58,974 nt of DNA from Polyangiaceae bacterium (lineage in GTDB: Bacteria > Myxococcota_A > Polyangia > Polyangiales > Polyangiaceae): positions 1 to 58,974 of the forward strand of contig JAJDAH010000134.1 in assembly GCA_029261965.1 (NCBI GenBank), given 5' to 3'. The position numbers and the translations under genes are program-made. Positions 15,071 to 48,621 of the stretch are shown piece by piece. Position 1 is the stretch's first letter, and each line of letters opens with the position of its first letter. The notes beneath the pieces were generated by a model that did not search any database, was not told the DNA's origin, and saw nothing but the letters and a program-made list of their open reading frames with translations.

Positions 15071-15723
15071 CTGAGTGTCCTTCGCGCGGTTATGAGATCA
15101 CATCTGGGCCAAGACATAGCGATGTGGACAGCCTTCCGCTACCCCAAGCATCAAGTAACGACTCAGTTTGAGCGTTGGTGTGCTCAAAGCACAAAGCCGG
15201 CTTGAACGTCGGCTTAGCGCTCCAAGCGCGGCCGTTATGCCGCGCAATGTCGGGCCTCGCTTCTTTACCAAAACCGGACCTAAGAACGCACGGGAGAGGT
15301 CCGGAACCATCCGAAATCGGCTGCACGGAAATCGGTTGAGGCTGTTCTCTGACTCCGGGGTTGGAGTCACGCTTTCCGTGGTGCTGCCATTCTCCGCACC
15401 TGTCGGGCGTTATCCGGGAAATCTCGGTCAAAATTCCAATTTTATTGATCTCGGTCAACGACCAGTTTTTCGGAGCGAGAGTAAATTGCAGGCGTGAGGC
15501 GCGTATTCAGGGCCTTTGCCGCGATGCCATGAGGGCAGGATGAACGAACCTTGTCATTCATGGGCCTGCTAACAGATCCTGGCGATCGGGCCGAGGCGAG
15601 CGGAGAAAGTTTTGTGGCTCTCGGGAGCGGTTTTGTCAGGAGTCTCTGGCATCGCCAGCGATCCGAGCAGTGAAGTTGGTCTGGCGGCAAACGTCCAGGA
15701 GCCGCCGTAGTGGGGGTAAACAG
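15071..15723. other. 653-bp regulatory interval before the molybdoenzyme operon
   Basis: Short open frames here lack ribosome binding sites and family resemblance, so none is called. Visible structure: an inverted repeat TGACTCC/GGAGTCA near 15350-15370 and the FNR-like box with its direct repeat at 15421-15458. The long untranslated distance to the operon start (about 265 bp) is unusual. Confidence 0.5.
15445..15458 (+). promoter_or_regulatory. FNR/CRP-family binding site
   Basis: TTGAT-CTCG-GTCAA matches the FNR consensus TTGAT-N4-ATCAA in nine of ten positions. Its right part, ATCTCGGTCAA, is repeated exactly at 15421-15431, 27 bp upstream. The position before a Mo/FeS respiratory operon supports anaerobic control; which regulator binds is inference. 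Confidence 0.6.
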
Positions 15724-18309
15724 ATGCTAGTCACCAGAAGAGCGTTTATCCAGAAGTCGGGCGTTGTCGCCGGTCTGGCCACAGTTGGGGGCAATCTGCC
15801 GGTCATCGCTAGGGCCGCCGCCGCGGCCAAGGGCCGGGGCGCCGCCGCGGCCGCAAACTACGTGAAGTCCACTTGCGTGCACTGCGTCCAGTTCTGCGGC
15901 ATCTCGGTGAAGATGGAGAACGGAATCATCCGCACCATCTATCCCGATCAGGCCCGCGGCGATTATTACAATAAGGGCATCTGCCCCAAGGGTGTCGCGG
16001 GCGGGTTCAACACCTACAACCCGTACCGGGTCAAGGCGCCCATGAAGCGGACCAACCCTGAAAAGGGTGTCAACGAGGATCCGCGGTGGGTCGAGATCTC
16101 GTGGGATGAGGCCTTCGACGCGATCGCCGCGCGACTCAACAAGATCAAGAAGGAGGATCCGCGCAAGCTGATCTGGCAGCACGGTCACGGCAAGTACCTG
16201 ATCGGCGATAAGTTTCCGAAGGCGTTCGCCAAGGCCTTCGGTACGCCGAACCTGGTGCACCGCACGACGGTGTGCGAGGCCGCCCGCCACGTCGCCGACG
16301 AGGTAACCTGGGGTTACCACGGGTTCCTGCCCGACGTCAGCCACTGCAAGATGCTGCTGAACTTCGGCGGCAACTACCTCGAGGGCGGCCAGTGGGGACG
16401 CTGGCTGGACCACAGCACGGCGGACGCCAAGGAGCGGGGCCTCAAGATCGTCGTCGTCGAACCGAGGCTGTCCCATTGCGCCGCCAAGGCCGATGAATGG
16501 ATTCCCGTCCGTCCCGGCAAGGACGTGGTGCTTATGCTGGGCATGGCCAAGGTCCTTATCGACAAGGGCCTGATCGACGAGGCCTTCCTCACCACCACCA
16601 CCAATGCGCCCGACCTGGTTGGCGAAGACGGCAACGTGCTTAGCACCGCCGATGGCAAGCCGCTTGTGTACGACAGCGTGAGCAAGAGCGCCAAGCCCTT
16701 CACCGCCGGCGTCATGCCGACTCTTCGGGGCACCTACACGGTGAACGGTAAGCCCTATAAGACGGCGTTCGAGCTGTTCGTTGAGAGCCTCAAGGACATC
16801 ACGCCCGCCTATGTGGAGACGGTCGCGGACGTCCCGGCGGCAACCGTCGAGCGGCTGGCGACGGAATTCGGCGAGGCGGCGACGATCGGTGCCACCATCA
16901 CCTTGGACGGCCACGTTCTGCGCCACCGGCCGGTCGCCATCTATACCTTCCGCGGCTTGGCTGCCAAGCAGTTCGGTGTGCAGAACTGGCGCACCGGCCT
17001 GATCCTGCAGATGCTGGTCGGCTGTGTCGATGCGGTGGGTGGAATTAACCTGCACAGCGTCTACAAGTCGCCCAAGTACCTGAAGCCGTCGAAGGCCGAG
17101 TATCCGCCCAAGCGGGTCGACCTGCAGACCAGTGTGTACTTCCCTCATGCCACTCACAACGTGGCGCAACAGGTGGCGCTCACGCTGCTCGATCCCCAGG
17201 CCTACGGGCTCGAATACACGCCGGAGATGCAGATCTTCTATGCCACCAACCGGCCGTTCTCGGCGTCCGAGGGCTGGAAGCAGGTGGACGGAATGAAGCC
17301 GACCTTCAACGTCGTCATCGACATCGTGATGAGCGAGGCGGCGTGGATGGCGGACATCGTCCTGCCCGACCTGACGTACCTGGAATCGTGGCACTTCTCG
17401 CCGACGCGCTACACGCCGACAACGAAGCACAGCGCCATCCGCCAGCCGGTGGCCAACGTCTACAACCTGCCCCACGACGCCTACTCGATTCTCTGGGAGC
17501 TGGCCAAGCGGGTCGGCGTTCGGGACAAGTACATCGAGAACGTCAACAAGGCATGGGGGCTCAAGAAGCACCCGATGGAGCCGGGCCGCGACTACACCGC
17601 GCGCGAGGCGGTCGAGCTCATCTGGCTGGAGAAGACCAAGGACAAGAAGCCATTCGCCTACGCCCTCGAGCACGGTTTCCTCGGTAAGAAGCTCAAGGTC
17701 GAGGACACCTACCTCAAGGGCGTCGAGAAACAGTTCAAGGGGCCCGATAAGCCGAAGATGTACTTCTATGCCGAGCAGCTGGTCGGCAGCTACGCCAACG
17801 TCAAGAAGGCGGTCGAGAAGAACGGTATCAAGAACATCGATCTCGCGGCCTACAAGATCGCGCTGTCACCGCTGCCCCTGAAGGAGCATGCCTTCCCAAC
17901 GCCGCACGTTGAGGCGACCGATTTTCCGCTCTACCTGATCACCTACAAGCGGATGTACCGCAACCAGGGCGGCAACACGGCCCTGAACCCGATCCTCAAC
18001 GCCCTCGGCGACACCGATGAGAACTGGGTGGCCATCAATTCGGCCACCGCCAAGAGCCTGGGCATCGCGGACCGCGGCCAGGTGGTCATCGAGACCCGCG
18101 TTGGTAAGGTCCAGGGCATGGCCCGGCTCAGCCAGGGCATCCGGCCGGACACCGTGGCCGTCTCCTACCACTACGGTCAGTGGAGCGGCGGGATGCCGGC
18201 CTCGGCGCGCAAGGGCATCTGGATCAATTCGGTGCTGGAGCTCCATCCCGACGTGGTTTCGGGCATGAACAGCTTCAACGACACCAAATGCAAAGTCTAC
18301 AAGGCATAG
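15724..18309 (+). CDS. molybdopterin oxidoreductase catalytic subunit (DMSO reductase superfamily)
   Basis: 861-residue Mo/W-bisMGD enzyme. The N terminus has a twin-arginine motif (TRRAFIQ) and hydrophobic stretch, so it is exported folded by Tat. A [4Fe-4S] site is formed by Cys51, Cys54, Cys58 and Cys87, and Cys184 (TTVCEAARH) is the likely Mo ligand. The PMKRTNPEKG...WVEISWDEA segment resembles the ArrA/PadB/acetylene-hydratase branch more than nitrate or formate enzymes. The substrate is unknown. ATG at 15724 is chosen because GGGGG lies eight bases upstream and the Tat signal starts there. First gene of a four-gene operon. Confidence 0.92.
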   Translation: MLVTRRAFIQKSGVVAGLATVGGNLPVIARAAAAAKGRGAAAAANYVKSTCVHCVQFCGISVKMENGIIRTIYPDQARGDYYNKGICPKGVAGGFNTYNPYRVKAPMKRTNPEKGVNEDPRWVEISWDEAFDAIAARLNKIKKEDPRKLIWQHGHGKYLIGDKFPKAFAKAFGTPNLVHRTTVCEAARHVADEVTWGYHGFLPDVSHCKMLLNFGGNYLEGGQWGRWLDHSTADAKERGLKIVVVEPRLSHCAAKADEWIPVRPGKDVVLMLGMAKVLIDKGLIDEAFLTTTTNAPDLVGEDGNVLSTADGKPLVYDSVSKSAKPFTAGVMPTLRGTYTVNGKPYKTAFELFVESLKDITPAYVETVADVPAATVERLATEFGEAATIGATITLDGHVLRHRPVAIYTFRGLAAKQFGVQNWRTGLILQMLVGCVDAVGGINLHSVYKSPKYLKPSKAEYPPKRVDLQTSVYFPHATHNVAQQVALTLLDPQAYGLEYTPEMQIFYATNRPFSASEGWKQVDGMKPTFNVVIDIVMSEAAWMADIVLPDLTYLESWHFSPTRYTPTTKHSAIRQPVANVYNLPHDAYSILWELAKRVGVRDKYIENVNKAWGLKKHPMEPGRDYTAREAVELIWLEKTKDKKPFAYALEHGFLGKKLKVEDTYLKGVEKQFKGPDKPKMYFYAEQLVGSYANVKKAVEKNGIKNIDLAAYKIALSPLPLKEHAFPTPHVEATDFPLYLITYKRMYRNQGGNTALNPILNALGDTDENWVAINSATAKSLGIADRGQVVIETRVGKVQGMARLSQGIRPDTVAVSYHYGQWSGGMPASARKGIWINSVLELHPDVVSGMNSFNDTKCKVYKA

Positions 18310-18322
18310 AGGGGTACGCAGC

Positions 18323-19018
18323 ATGACCAGGTATGTCCGTCTGATCGACACAGAACGGTGCATGGGCTGTCGCGCCTGCGTTGCCGCCTGTTACACCGAG
18401 AACTATTTCACGCCGGATGCGCCGTGGAACGTGGTCGTCGAGCACGAGATCGGGACCTACCCGAACACCCAACTCGCGTTCATACCGGTGAACTGCATGC
18501 ATTGCGAGGATCCGCCCTGTATGACGGTCTGCGACGAGATCGGGGTACACGCGATCACCAAGAATGAGTTCGGAGTTGTCCTCATTGACTACGACAAGTG
18601 CATCGGCTGCAAGTACTGCGTGGCGGCTTGCCCCTACGGCGTACCCCAGTACAACGAAAGCCTGAAGCAGCTATACCCGGAGGCGGAGGCGGCGACGACT
18701 CCTTACGAGCAAGTCGACTACGCCGACCGTCACCCCACCCACCAGAAGAAGGCGAAGGTGGTGGAGAAATGCACCATGTGCTGGCACAAGCTGGAGGCGG
18801 CGATGGAGGCCGGCAAGGCCGACCGCATCGGCAAGGACCCCGAGTACACCCCCAGTTGCGACTTGGTCTGCCCGGTGCAGGCGCGGATCTTCGGCGATAT
18901 CGACGATCCCAACAGCGAGGTCGCCAAGCAGATCGGGGCCAAGAAGGCCGCCCAGATCAAGAAGGAATACGGAACGCGCCCGCAAGTCTATTATGTCCTG
19001 GAAGGAGGCGACTTCTGA
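18323..19018 (+). CDS. four-cluster ferredoxin subunit of the molybdoenzyme
   Basis: 231-residue electron-transfer subunit of the DmsB/PsrB/NrfC type. Four cysteine groups for [4Fe-4S] clusters are visible: CMGCRACVAAC at residues 13-23, CMHCEDPPCMTVC, CIGCKYCVAACPYG, and CTMC completed by the later C..VCP. It lacks its own signal peptide and is probably exported with the Tat-carrying catalytic subunit. It begins 13 bp after the catalytic gene with GAGGGG as ribosome binding site, and its stop overlaps the next start (TGATG). Confidence 0.93.
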   Translation: MTRYVRLIDTERCMGCRACVAACYTENYFTPDAPWNVVVEHEIGTYPNTQLAFIPVNCMHCEDPPCMTVCDEIGVHAITKNEFGVVLIDYDKCIGCKYCVAACPYGVPQYNESLKQLYPEAEAATTPYEQVDYADRHPTHQKKAKVVEKCTMCWHKLEAAMEAGKADRIGKDPEYTPSCDLVCPVQARIFGDIDDPNSEVAKQIGAKKAAQIKKEYGTRPQVYYVLEGGDF

Positions 19019-19377
19019 TGACCAAGATCCTCTTTTTCCTTACGGTCGCAGCGGTCGTTATGCCGGCCTTTGCGGCCGATTCTCTGGATTTGTCTGAAGT
19101 TGCGAAAGACATTCAAAAGGGCAAGGTCGACGTCGGCACCGAATACTCGATGAGCTTCGGCACGGGTCGTTTCCACAATATCCACGCGAACACCCTGGGG
19201 CTGAACTGCGAAAGCTGCCACGGCGGAACCGAGTACCAACCGGATTTCATCCTATTGCGCAAATACGAGGATGATACGAGCGGGTCGCCCGGCAAAGTCG
19301 ACCAGAGCTCATGCTTGGGATGCCACACGGCCGGTGGCATAGCGACGACATTGTACAACGGCCGAGCAACCAAGTGA
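19018..19377 (+). CDS. small diheme cytochrome c
   Basis: 119-residue periplasmic c-type cytochrome. A Sec signal peptide (TKILFFLTVAAVVMPAFAA, cleavage near residue 19-20) is followed by two haem sites: CESCH at 64-68 and CLGCH at 99-103. No membrane anchor is present in the mature part. It overlaps the ferredoxin gene by one base and the chaperone gene by four, so it is tightly built into the operon and is the likely electron partner that replaces the usual membrane-bound quinone-reactive subunit. Family not recognised beyond class. Confidence 0.88.
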   Translation: MTKILFFLTVAAVVMPAFAADSLDLSEVAKDIQKGKVDVGTEYSMSFGTGRFHNIHANTLGLNCESCHGGTEYQPDFILLRKYEDDTSGSPGKVDQSSCLGCHTAGGIATTLYNGRATK

Positions 19378-20048
19378 GCGGTGTCGAGCGGTTGGCGGAG
19401 GTCGCACGGGAACGCAGCCAGGTCTATTGGTTCCTGAGCACCTTCTACACGACCCGGCCCGACGCCCGTTTCTTCGCCGATCTTGCCGGGCGGGTCGCAG
19501 CCCTGGAGGCGGCCGGTACGGACCCCGCTGGCGAAGGGGTCGACCATCTCCGCAGCGCGCTGAATGAACCCGACGCCGGCGGGCTCGCGGAGCGTCTCAC
19601 GGTCGAATACACGCGCCTCTTTCGTGGGTTGAGCGCCAATTACGGCCCACCGCCGCCTTATGAATCCTTGTACCGCGGATCGCAGCTCATGGGCGAAGTG
19701 ACGGCGGCCGTCATGGCGCGGTATGCGGCCGCCGGTTTCGGCGTCATCGACGAAGACCTCGGACCGCAAGATCACATCGGCGCTGAGCTTAAGTTCATGG
19801 CCCTGCTCTGCCACGACGAGATCGCAGCGTGGGAACGTGCGGATCGCGATGCGGCGGCCCGTAGCTGGAAGCTACAACGAGAGTTTCTGGCCAAACACCT
19901 GTTGCGATGGGTCCCGGCATACTGCCGCCGGCTCCAAGAGGAAAGCGTCGAACGGTTTTACATCGGCGCCGCGTTGCTCACCGAACACGCGGTTATCGCG
20001 GACAACGGGGTTCTTGACGATCTCTTGATGACGGCCGAGGCTGAGTAG
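19374..20048 (+). CDS. TorD/DmsD-family redox enzyme chaperone
   Basis: 224-residue, all-helical cytoplasmic chaperone of the TorD family, which binds the Tat signal or apo-form of a molybdoenzyme and supports cofactor insertion before export. Family hallmarks include EYTRLFRGLSANYGPPPPYESLYRG and the later PQDHIGAELKFMALLCHDE. The start is a GTG at 19374 overlapping the cytochrome stop (GTGA). Its dedicated client is presumably the catalytic subunit encoded at 15724. Confidence 0.88.
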   Translation: MSGVERLAEVARERSQVYWFLSTFYTTRPDARFFADLAGRVAALEAAGTDPAGEGVDHLRSALNEPDAGGLAERLTVEYTRLFRGLSANYGPPPPYESLYRGSQLMGEVTAAVMARYAAAGFGVIDEDLGPQDHIGAELKFMALLCHDEIAAWERADRDAAARSWKLQREFLAKHLLRWVPAYCRRLQEESVERFYIGAALLTEHAVIADNGVLDDLLMTAEAE

Positions 20049-44910: not shown

Positions 44911-47727
44911 ATGGCGAGGGTTGTCGATAATAGTTTGAGTTTGCTCCGCGCGAGGAAATTTCTGCTGCTTGGCGTACTCGCCGCGGCCGCTGTTTTGGCC
45001 GGGTGCGATGAATCGGGCAATATCGACTCGGCACAATATCTAGACCGGGCCCGAAACCACTTCGAAGCCGGCGATATCCGGGCCAGCGTCATAGAATTAA
45101 AGAATGCGTTGCAGCAAGATGCATCGAATGGCGAAGCCAGGCTTTTGCTTGGTCAAATCTACACCGAATCGGGCGATGGCACGAGCGCCCTGAAAGAGCT
45201 GAACCGGGCCGAAGAACTGGGCATCGCCCAAAACCGAACCGCAATCCACATGGGCCGCGCCCTGTTGCAAACCGGTGACGCGGCCGCGGCCCTAGTTAAG
45301 CTCGACATCGCCGCGAATGACCCAGCTACCAAGCTAGCAAATCTACACATCTTGCGCGCCGGCGCCTACGCCGCGCTTGGAGACCTCGGCAAAGCCGACG
45401 ACTCCTTTCGGTCTGCGCTCGAAGACGAGCCTGAAAATCTCAATGCGCTAGCCGGGCTCGGCGGCTTGCTCGTCGTGCGGAAGCGCTACGATGAAGCCGA
45501 GGAGATTGCCGCGAAGGCGCTTGCGATCGATGCCGATAGCGTCTCGGCGCGGGAAGTAATTGCTGAATCTCTGTTGGCGCGGGGGCGCGTTAGCGACGCT
45601 AAAGCTCACTTCCAGAAAATTGTCGATGCCAATCCGGAACTCCTTCGGGCTGTCGTGCGCTTGGCCTTCACACAGATCTCCACCGGCGATCTCGACGCCG
45701 CGATCACCAATCTCGATCGTGCGCTGATCCAAGATCCGGATAGCCCGGAGGCCAACTATTTTCGCGGCTTGGCGGCCTATCAGAAGAAAGACTACCAGAC
45801 AGCCAAGGCCCACGGCAGCACGATCCTTTCCGAACAACCCACTAATGGCCCGGCGATGCTCCTAACCGGGGCGGCGGATTTCGCTCTCAATCAGAATGAG
45901 CAAGCCCGCGCCCTGTTGACGCCCTACTTGAACGAATTTCCATCCGATGACCGGGCGCGCCGGTTACTTGGCGCGACCCTGATGCGCTTGGGCGATTCTG
46001 GGCAGGCTCTGGATGTCTTGCAACCGCTTGCCGACAAGTCGCTCGACGACGCGGAACTCCTCGCCTTGGTTGGTTCGGCGGCGGTGCAAAGCGGCGACAC
46101 CGTGATCGCGCGCAAATACTTGAACCGGGCCGCGGAATTGAGCCCCGATAGCGGTCAGGCGATGGTGCAGTTGGGCGCGATATCCCTGCAAGCCGGCGAA
46201 CCGCAACAGGCAATCCGGGAGCTCAAGCAGGCTTTATTGCAGAACCCGGATTTGGACCAGGCGTTGGCCGGGGTCGCCTTAGCGCACTTGCAGGCACGCG
46301 AATTCGATCAAGCGCTGGAAGCGGCCATTAAGTTCCGCGAGAAGGATCCTGGGCGCGCCGTGGGCGCGACCCTGGTCGGCATCGCTCTGGTTGCCAAGGG
46401 CGACCTTGAGGCGGCGCGAGGCGCCTTCGAAGATGCCCTGAAGATCACCCCAGCGGCACCCGATGCCGGGACGAATCTCGCGGTCCTCGAAGCCCGGGAG
46501 GGCAACTTGGACCGCGCACGAGAGATTGCGCACCAGGTTCTGACCCAGCACCCGGCAACCCCAAACTTGCTGCGTTTGCTGGCCAGCGTCGAGGAGCGCG
46601 CGGGACGCCGGGACGACGTCCGGCCCTGGCTGGAGAAGGCGATTGCCACCGACCCCGATGCCCTTGACGCGCGCGCCCTCCTGGGCCGGATTCACTTGAT
46701 CGGCGGGCGTGCCGCCGAGGCTTTGGCCGTGACGCGCGCCTACATGACGGCTAACCCGGACAACCTGCAGCTGCGCGAGGTGGTCGGACGCGCGCAACTG
46801 GCCACCAGACAAAACGCAGACGCCGTCATCACCTTGCGGCCGCTGGCCGAGGCCTTGCCGGATTCGGCGATGGCGCACCTGCTCCTGGCTGGCGCCTTCC
46901 GGGCCACAGGCGACTTGCCCCGCTACGAGGCGGAGCTTGAGCGGGTTCTAAAGATCGATGCCGAACACCTTGGGGCCAAGATCGGCCTAGCCGGCCTTCT
47001 CGCTCAAAAACGGGAATTTGGGCGCGCCCAAGACCTTTTGGCCCAGGTGAAGGAAGCTGCCCCCGAGGCGCCTGAAGTGCTCGATCTCGAAGGCGGGATC
47101 GCGATGGCGCGCGGTCGTCCGGAAGAGGCTGTCGAAGCCTACGGCAAGGCCCTGGAGAAACGCCCCTCCAGCGAAGCCGTCATGCGCTTGGCAATAGCTC
47201 AGCAACGGGGGGGAGATACCGAGGGCGGTGTGGAGAGCCTAACGAGGTGGCTGGATGAGAATCCAGATGACCGCGGCGCCCGTGGACTGCTGGGCGTTCA
47301 ATATGTGGCGCTACTCCGGCTGGAAGACGCCCGTTCGGCCTTCGCGACCATTGTCGAAACCAGTCCTGACGACGCCGTGGCGCTGAATAACCTGGCCACG
47401 GTCGAGGCCCGCCTTGGCAACGCCGACGATGCCCTGGCTCACGCGGAAAGGGCACACGAATTGGTCCCCGAAGATCCCGGGATCAAGGACACACTGGGCA
47501 CAATCTTGTTAGACGACGGCGACACGCAACGGGCCCTGCGCTTGCTGCGCCAAGCCGCCGATCAAGTGACCGACAATGCGGAGATCGGCTTTCACTATGC
47601 CCAGGCCCTGGTTGCGGTCGGCGATAACGCCGAGGCGCGCACAGTGCTGCGCAAGGCCCTCGACTTGGGCCAAACCTTCCATGGGATCGACAAGGCCCAG
47701 GACCTGATGCGGGAACTCGAACAGTAA
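44911..47727 (+). CDS. prsT: PrsT, TPR-repeat lipoprotein of the PEP-CTERM system
   Basis: 938-residue lipoprotein with lipobox VLAGC (Cys32) after a hydrophobic signal, then tandem tetratricopeptide repeats along nearly the whole length (for example GEARLLLGQIYTESGDGTSALKELNRAEELG near 73). It matches the XrtA-associated PrsT (TIGR02917-like), thought to act as a scaffold for polysaccharide or protein assembly in the cell envelope. GAGAGAGGGC precedes the ATG. It is divergent from prsK, and no PEP-CTERM tail is present. Confidence 0.93.
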   Translation: MARVVDNSLSLLRARKFLLLGVLAAAAVLAGCDESGNIDSAQYLDRARNHFEAGDIRASVIELKNALQQDASNGEARLLLGQIYTESGDGTSALKELNRAEELGIAQNRTAIHMGRALLQTGDAAAALVKLDIAANDPATKLANLHILRAGAYAALGDLGKADDSFRSALEDEPENLNALAGLGGLLVVRKRYDEAEEIAAKALAIDADSVSAREVIAESLLARGRVSDAKAHFQKIVDANPELLRAVVRLAFTQISTGDLDAAITNLDRALIQDPDSPEANYFRGLAAYQKKDYQTAKAHGSTILSEQPTNGPAMLLTGAADFALNQNEQARALLTPYLNEFPSDDRARRLLGATLMRLGDSGQALDVLQPLADKSLDDAELLALVGSAAVQSGDTVIARKYLNRAAELSPDSGQAMVQLGAISLQAGEPQQAIRELKQALLQNPDLDQALAGVALAHLQAREFDQALEAAIKFREKDPGRAVGATLVGIALVAKGDLEAARGAFEDALKITPAAPDAGTNLAVLEAREGNLDRAREIAHQVLTQHPATPNLLRLLASVEERAGRRDDVRPWLEKAIATDPDALDARALLGRIHLIGGRAAEALAVTRAYMTANPDNLQLREVVGRAQLATRQNADAVITLRPLAEALPDSAMAHLLLAGAFRATGDLPRYEAELERVLKIDAEHLGAKIGLAGLLAQKREFGRAQDLLAQVKEAAPEAPEVLDLEGGIAMARGRPEEAVEAYGKALEKRPSSEAVMRLAIAQQRGGDTEGGVESLTRWLDENPDDRGARGLLGVQYVALLRLEDARSAFATIVETSPDDAVALNNLATVEARLGNADDALAHAERAHELVPEDPGIKDTLGTILLDDGDTQRALRLLRQAADQVTDNAEIGFHYAQALVAVGDNAEARTVLRKALDLGQTFHGIDKAQDLMRELEQ

Positions 47728-47774
47728 CCGTCTTGCGGCTCATCGATGCGGCCGCGGCGCGCATGAAGCCGGGC

Positions 47775-47804
47775 AAAAAAAGAGGGGGCCATTCGGCCCC
47801 CTCT
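47775..47804 (-). terminator. intrinsic terminator of the PEP-CTERM gene
   Basis: AGAGGGGGCC and GGCCCCCTCT form a perfect ten-pair stem with a four-base loop. On the minus strand the stem is followed by a run of T (47780-47775 region), so it terminates the PEP-CTERM transcript about 30 bp after its stop. Confidence 0.85.
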
Positions 47805-47833
47805 TCGATTCTAGAGCGGTCTCCCAGATGACG

Positions 47834-48535
47834 TTAGCCGTCCAAGTGCCGCGCCGCCCGGCGCCGGGCCAGGAAACCGAGCCCGAGAAGGCCAATGCCG
47901 AACAGGGCTAGAGCCTGCGGCTCGGGAACGACGATCTTGGTGTTTCCGCTGCTTAGCACAAGCTGTTCGTTACCGTGCGTGATCCTCACGACCGTGGTGA
48001 GAGAAATGAGTCCATTGGGCGCCAACTCGAAGCCCTCCTCACCGACAACCGAGCCAACCTCGCCTAGCAACACGGTTTCGGCGAAAGCGACGTTGCCGCT
48101 ATCGTAGTAGCAGGAAGTGCTGACGGAGCCGCCGGATACGCCACCAATCCCGCAAGAGCCCCTGGAGAGGCCGCTAATCAAGAAATCCGTGTCCGTCATT
48201 TTGATCGTCAGAGTGCCGCCGGCACCGAAGCTCCCGGCGCTGAAAGCCATATCCATCACGGGGTGGGACGGGTCGCCCACGAACGGCTTGGACACACCGA
48301 AGGCCATCGCCAAAGTGAAATTGCCAACCCCAAGCAAAGGATTCGTAAGCAGAGCGCCGGTCCGCGGATCGAGGTCCGCCAGCAGCTGGTTGTCCGTGTA
48401 GGTCTTCGTTGTTATGCCGTCGCTGATTTCGATCATGAACGCCGCCTGCGCGCCGCTGCTGAGCATTACGCTTCCAGCTACGGCGAGCGCCATGGCGCCC
48501 ATGAACATCTTACCTAGATACTTTCGCGATCCCAT
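47834..48535 (-). CDS. PEP-CTERM sorting-domain protein
   Basis: 233-residue secreted protein. A signal peptide (KMFMGAMALAVAGSVMLSSGAQAA) precedes a beta-rich, Ser/Gly-rich passenger with one Cys pair region (SCGIGG..SCYYD). The C terminus is a textbook sorting signal: VPEP, a hydrophobic helix (LALFGIGLLGLGFLA) and the RRR cluster, so XrtA is its expected processing enzyme. ATG at 48535 is preferred over 48550 because GGGGAG lies seven bases upstream. It has its own sigma-54 promoter and terminator. The role of the passenger is unknown. Confidence 0.92.
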   Translation of the reverse strand: MGSRKYLGKMFMGAMALAVAGSVMLSSGAQAAFMIEISDGITTKTYTDNQLLADLDPRTGALLTNPLLGVGNFTLAMAFGVSKPFVGDPSHPVMDMAFSAGSFGAGGTLTIKMTDTDFLISGLSRGSCGIGGVSGGSVSTSCYYDSGNVAFAETVLLGEVGSVVGEEGFELAPNGLISLTTVVRITHGNEQLVLSSGNTKIVVPEPQALALFGIGLLGLGFLARRRAARHLDG

Positions 48536-48621
48536 TAGTCCACTCCCCATGTTCTACCTGACAACCCAAAATAACCCTACTTGGTTCCGGCCAATCCGCT
48601 AAGCCGTGGTCCTCGTTAATA

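Follow-up and report, generated by a model that had tools for sequence, protein, structure and literature searches.

The window, a stretch of 58,974 nucleotides from a contig of a Polyangiaceae bacterium, contains four closely spaced genes, designated A to D, and an upstream box:

15445..15458, + strand: FNR/Crp-type box TTGATCTCGGTCAA, one mismatch, 266 bp upstream of gene A
15724..18309, + strand: gene A, exported Mo/W-bisPGD catalytic subunit, 861 aa, ATG start; PF00384, PF01568
18323..19018, + strand: gene B, four-[4Fe-4S] ferredoxin subunit, 231 aa; 16 Cys, four clusters
19018..19377, + strand: gene C, secreted diheme cytochrome c, 119 aa; CxxCH at 64 and 99
19374..20048, + strand: gene D, TorD/Nitrate_red_del-family chaperone, 224 aa from GTG; PF02613, 6.7e-26

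The N-terminus of A, MLVTRRAFIQK, is of the Tat type. A and B are separated by 13 nt, B and C are joined by a TGATG overlap and C and D by a GTGA overlap, so the start of D is likely the GTG at 19374 rather than the ATG at 19311. No polytopic membrane subunit adjoins the operon within the window, where its neighbours are housekeeping genes. The four genes, their coordinates and their order had been reported in an earlier note and were borne out by the open reading frame positions, domains and motifs. In a comparison with the orthologues in L009, the closest relative, the third codon positions were the most divergent in A, B, C and D. Chance open reading frames were ruled out by this codon pattern, the domains and the conservation of gene order described below, and the operon is therefore not fortuitous.

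About 85,000 genomes were scanned, and 24 relatives had identities of 52-81%; below these, identity fell to some 41% at best and was mostly 26-34%. The search for the same four-gene order that the earlier note had suggested found A-B-C-D in 22 of 22 complete loci, their hosts being alpha-, beta- or gammaproteobacteria and, in one case, an archaeon of the Archaeoglobaceae. Among 108 genomes of the window's family, the module was present only in the window's own genome, which speaks against vertical inheritance in that family and indicates that the module probably reached the organism by transfer. Its base composition is not deviant. Two other genomes of the family have relatives at 38-40%. None of the publications consulted describes the module.

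The catalytic subunit belongs to the DMSO reductase/CISM superfamily (Mo-bisPGD), as its domains, cysteine set, ligand residue and fold match all indicate. It scored over the Pfam cut-offs for PF00384 and PF01568, and the [4Fe-4S] ligands Cys51/54/58/87 were invariant in the 24 orthologues, as was Cys184, which aligns with the Mo ligand position to which it had been assigned. The loop around Cys184, HRTTxCExxRHV, is nearly invariant among the orthologues and unlike the ArrA and ArxA loops. The segment PMKRTNPEKG, which begins at residue 106, had been described as ArrA/PadB/acetylene-hydratase-like; the segment is present, but it is not diagnostic because the form (M/L)(K/R)RTNPxKG is also seen in ArxA, ArrA and an uncharacterised sister group. 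The label acetylene-hydratase-like for that sister group was dropped, its best solved match being thiosulfate reductase.

A passed no curated family cut-off. The scores were 193 bits with the ArrA model (cut-off 1600 bits), 268 bits with PhsA (cut-off 694 bits), 111 bits with TIGR03479, the model for type II enzymes (cut-off 985 bits; the ligand in A is Cys184) and 63 bits with TtrA (against 1750), while the AioA model TIGR02693 gave no match in A. The closest solved relatives were the two subunits of Shewanella ANA-3 ArrAB (PDB 6cz7), ArrA for A (profile 3.9e-67; fold Z 24.9) and ArrB, 6cz7_B, for B (5.1e-50), and the fold Z of acetylene hydratase to A was 21.4, below that of ArrA. In two trees, which covered ArrA, ArxA and PhsA/PsrA-like proteins, the A clade was fully supported and separate from ArrA + ArxA and from the PhsA/PsrA-like proteins. 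Grouping inside a characterised clade, which the earlier note had named as fatal to its proposal, consequently did not occur for ArrA, ArxA or PhsA. Membership in ArrA was rejected on the score below the cut-off and the supported placement elsewhere in the tree, in ArxA on the position outside that clade and the lack of an NrfD-type ArxC and of ArxB2 in the operon, and in PhsA/PsrA on the separate clade, a score far below the cut-off and the lack of an NrfD-type subunit in the operon.

Each of the known systems shares some features with the module and differs in others. ArrAB has a Cys Mo ligand and can lack a membrane subunit, but in the module there is a fixed diheme cytochrome gene, and His155 and His189 of A align with ArrA Arg165 and Lys198, which we take to be the arsenate-binding residues. 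ArxB2ABCD with ArxXSR has the A, B and TorD parts, its type of arsenite-sensor triad adjoins the module in relatives and it lies in the same island in L026, but A is only about 26-28% identical to ArxA over its full length and cytochrome C stands in the operon instead of ArxC and ArxB2. PsrABC and PhsABC have the Cys ligand and the same A and B architecture, but differ by clade and by their NrfD/PsrC subunit. AioBA is likewise a periplasmic enzyme, an arsenite oxidase under AioXSR control, but it belongs to another lineage and has a Rieske subunit, for which there is no gene among the four. Perchlorate reductase, Pcr, belongs to the type II enzymes, in which Asp is the Mo ligand, and its genes follow the order A-B-cytochrome-chaperone. 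Its fold Z to A tied with that of ArrA, but PcrC is tetraheme, whereas the module has a Cys ligand and a diheme C.

The absence of a membrane anchor, which the earlier note had held up as a contrast with known operons, has precedents. Shewanella Arr works through the NapC-type CymA and lacks a membrane subunit of its own (PMC2500031), and in PcrABC the catalytic and FeS subunits are already paired with a c-type cytochrome, with no polytopic subunit (PMC5845722). The unusual points about the module are that its diheme gene is constant and that it forms a separate clade with an arsenic context. The description as a distinct, unassigned periplasmic Mo/FeS enzyme with a small diheme cytochrome as a constant part was upheld.

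The invariant residues of C among the orthologues are only the Cys and His of both CxxCH motifs, His53, His56 and Tyr113. These few residues include just four histidines, His53, His56, His68 and His103, which suggests that C carries bis-His hemes. Bis-His diheme cytochromes are often low-potential. The match of C to Cytochrome_C7 (Pfam) was 21.8 bits (E 1.7e-4) versus a gathering score of 24.8, and a fold search with a model of C (pLDDT 71) returned nothing useful. The N-termini of C are lipoprotein-like in L009, L021 and L028. When 56 distant loci were searched with the C profile, one further case was found, on a Chloroflexi contig (L061:980-5466), where a membrane-tethered C homologue precedes the ArrA-like gene of an ArrA-like operon and ACR3-like, permease and ArsR-like genes lie close by.

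The genes adjoining the module that could serve as quinone-side partners differ by lineage; the membrane subunit always co-inherited with the module, which the earlier note had listed as evidence against its proposal, was not what was seen. NapC-type tetraheme genes lie directly upstream of A in gammaproteobacterial loci (L011, L012, L016, L032), while heptaheme c and b561 genes lie downstream of the module in L021, L023, L024, L026 and L030. Flavocytochrome c genes adjoin it in L014, L017, L020 and L031, and in L018 Crp and flavocytochrome genes are on a separate contig of the same genome (L132). In several Thiobacillus-type loci and L010, the gene after D encodes a ferredoxin-like protein of 508 aa that contains 4Fe-4S regions (L017:12428-13951). 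None of NapC, heptaheme c/b561 and flavocytochrome c was found beside the module in the window, and the window's genome has no PF01292 b-type cytochrome. The assembly has one NapC/NirT match, next to an NrfA-like gene (an NrfHA-like pair, L125:4624-6710), which was set aside as a partner because the rest of its contig looks foreign, possibly a contamination. On these grounds, the idea that this genome conceals a quinone partner for the module was rejected.

The FNR-like box at 15445-15458 had been offered as a sign of a low-oxygen role. It is present with one mismatch, but a single one-mismatch hit in 59 kb is no better than chance (59/100 shuffles have one) and the box was rejected as stand-alone proof. 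It gains weight from L009, where a box without mismatches lies about as far from A, at -313; one-mismatch boxes also occur at most 350 bp upstream of A in L019, L022, L025 and L028. Low-oxygen control is plausible.

The earlier note saw no signature in A that fixes a substrate, but the relatives supply a genomic cue, arsenic. An AioX/ArxX-type X-S-R triad lies beside the module in L017, L019, L021, L024, L026, L027 and L031. L018 is probably an eighth case, since its contig L132, with the order X-S-R-Crp-Fcc, ends in Crp and FccB, as Thiobacillus-type operons begin. In L021, L023 and L027, A is preceded by sigma-54-type boxes, as suits a sigma-54 regulator R. The best PDB match of X was AioX (3.6e-53), ahead of ArrX (3.0e-44), and X keeps all seven arsenite-pocket positions listed for the sensor (PMC5908839), Cys106 included and with T for S163. 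Six of these eight sensors form a single supported clade together with ArxX proteins encoded next to arx operons. Moreover, X at 300 bits or more was found in 14 of 24 module genomes versus 0 of 189 background genomes (Fisher 7e-16). Aio was present in 5 and Arx in 3 of 23 relative genomes (union 7); Aio occurred in 4 of 189 background genomes, the background samples for AioA and ArxA being small and of mixed completeness. Immediately upstream of the module in L017 is aioA, in L026 arx lies no more than 10 kb away, and ars genes are nearby in L011, L014, L019, L025 and L029. Four module genomes contain a second, likewise unassigned Mo operon, made up of FeS, NrfD-like, catalytic and TorD genes and accompanied by an AioX-type X of its own; its BCA order resembles the 'Unk' clade of PMC2500031:

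L117:8092-13185: second Mo operon with AioX-type X
L121:1-3647: second Mo operon with AioX-type X
L130:1338-6524: second Mo operon with AioX-type X
L135:3006-8109: second Mo operon with AioX-type X

Among the subclades, the alpha/beta one shows the strongest arsenic link and the window's own a weak one; in the latter, the L009 genome has X on another contig, L011 has the ars genes and no arsenic link was seen in L010, L012, L015 and L016. In the window's genome, AioX, Aio and Arx gave no match and ACR3 none over the cut-off, so the arsenic reading for this organism rests on orthology; its protein presumably acts like the better-documented orthologues. The tie to a substrate is one of genomic association, and some of the arsenic neighbours may hitchhike because arsenic genes cluster in islands.

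Our tentative reading, to which we give a little less than an even chance, is that the product of the operon is a Mo-bisPGD oxidoreductase that acts on arsenic oxyanions in the periplasm and belongs to an uncharacterised clade, with A oxidising arsenite or a thio form and feeding C. In this scheme, D would load the cofactor and guard the Tat signal, and A and B would be exported folded via Tat. Arsenite, or a thio-substituted form, would be oxidised by A at the Cys184-ligated Mo, and the electrons would run through the four clusters of B to the putative bis-His diheme cytochrome C and then to a carrier that depends on the host. This could be the pool of cytochrome c, a protein of the NapC type or, on the side of the quinone pool, a pair of heptaheme c and b561. 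An arsenic substrate also agrees with ArrA and ArrB as the closest solved relatives of A and B and with the C-like domain in the Chloroflexi operon. The outward direction, A to B to C, is favoured by the arsenite-type sensors and the Aio/Arx hosts. However, a bis-His, often low-potential diheme may fit a reductase better, and the histidines of A at the positions of ArrA Arg165 and Lys198 also count against this reading.

The NapC neighbours and bis-His hemes could instead reflect a terminal reductase, in which quinol would reduce a NapC-type or heptaheme c/b561 protein and the electrons would pass by way of C and B to A, where arsenate or a further chalcogen oxyanion would be reduced when oxygen is low. 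The heptaheme c and b561 genes, the FNR-like boxes and the closeness of ArrAB by sequence and fold agree with this direction of flow, but the X sensors are nearer the arsenite-binding AioX/ArxX than the arsenate-binding ArrX, several hosts carry arsenite oxidases and the window's genome has no such partner except the NrfHA-like pair on the doubtful contig, which leaves a reductase unlikely. Still less probable is an enzyme of sulfur oxidisers acting on sulfide, polysulfide, sulfite or thiosulfate, with arsenic neighbours that merely reflect arsenic-exposed hosts. Many module hosts are Thiobacillus-like, flavocytochrome c genes adjoin the module or, for L018, lie on L132, sox-type genes are near it in L025, a SoxA-like gene is present in L031 and a putative ATP-sulfurylase-like gene, read from its open reading frame, lies upstream in L009. 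However, the sulfur genes are found mainly in one subgroup while the AioX-type sensors span alpha- and betaproteobacterial lineages, and the position of A relative to PhsA/PsrA does not favour a sulfur substrate.

Returning to arsenic oxidation, an undescribed enzyme of this kind is possible because the module of the relatives adjoins arsenite-sensing and arsenic-resistance genes, and thioarsenite is a possible substrate in sulfidic settings because flavocytochrome c and sox genes adjoin it as well. The more specific proposal, somewhat doubtful at present, is a further enzyme that oxidises As(III), evolved independently of the Aio and Arr/Arx lineages and perhaps acts on thioarsenites where sulfide is present, with a constant diheme cytochrome that joins it to different respiratory chains. 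If so, one Mo/FeS core keeps its cytochrome while the quinone-side partner swaps between lineages. Arsenic surveys target aioA, arxA and arrA; if the clade acts on arsenic, they miss, among others, Thiobacillus-like sulfur oxidisers, Methylococcaceae and Photobacterium relatives. Elsewhere in the window, at 44911-48550, a long TPR-type open reading frame and a PEP-CTERM-like one, as read from the frames themselves, lie near polysaccharide genes.
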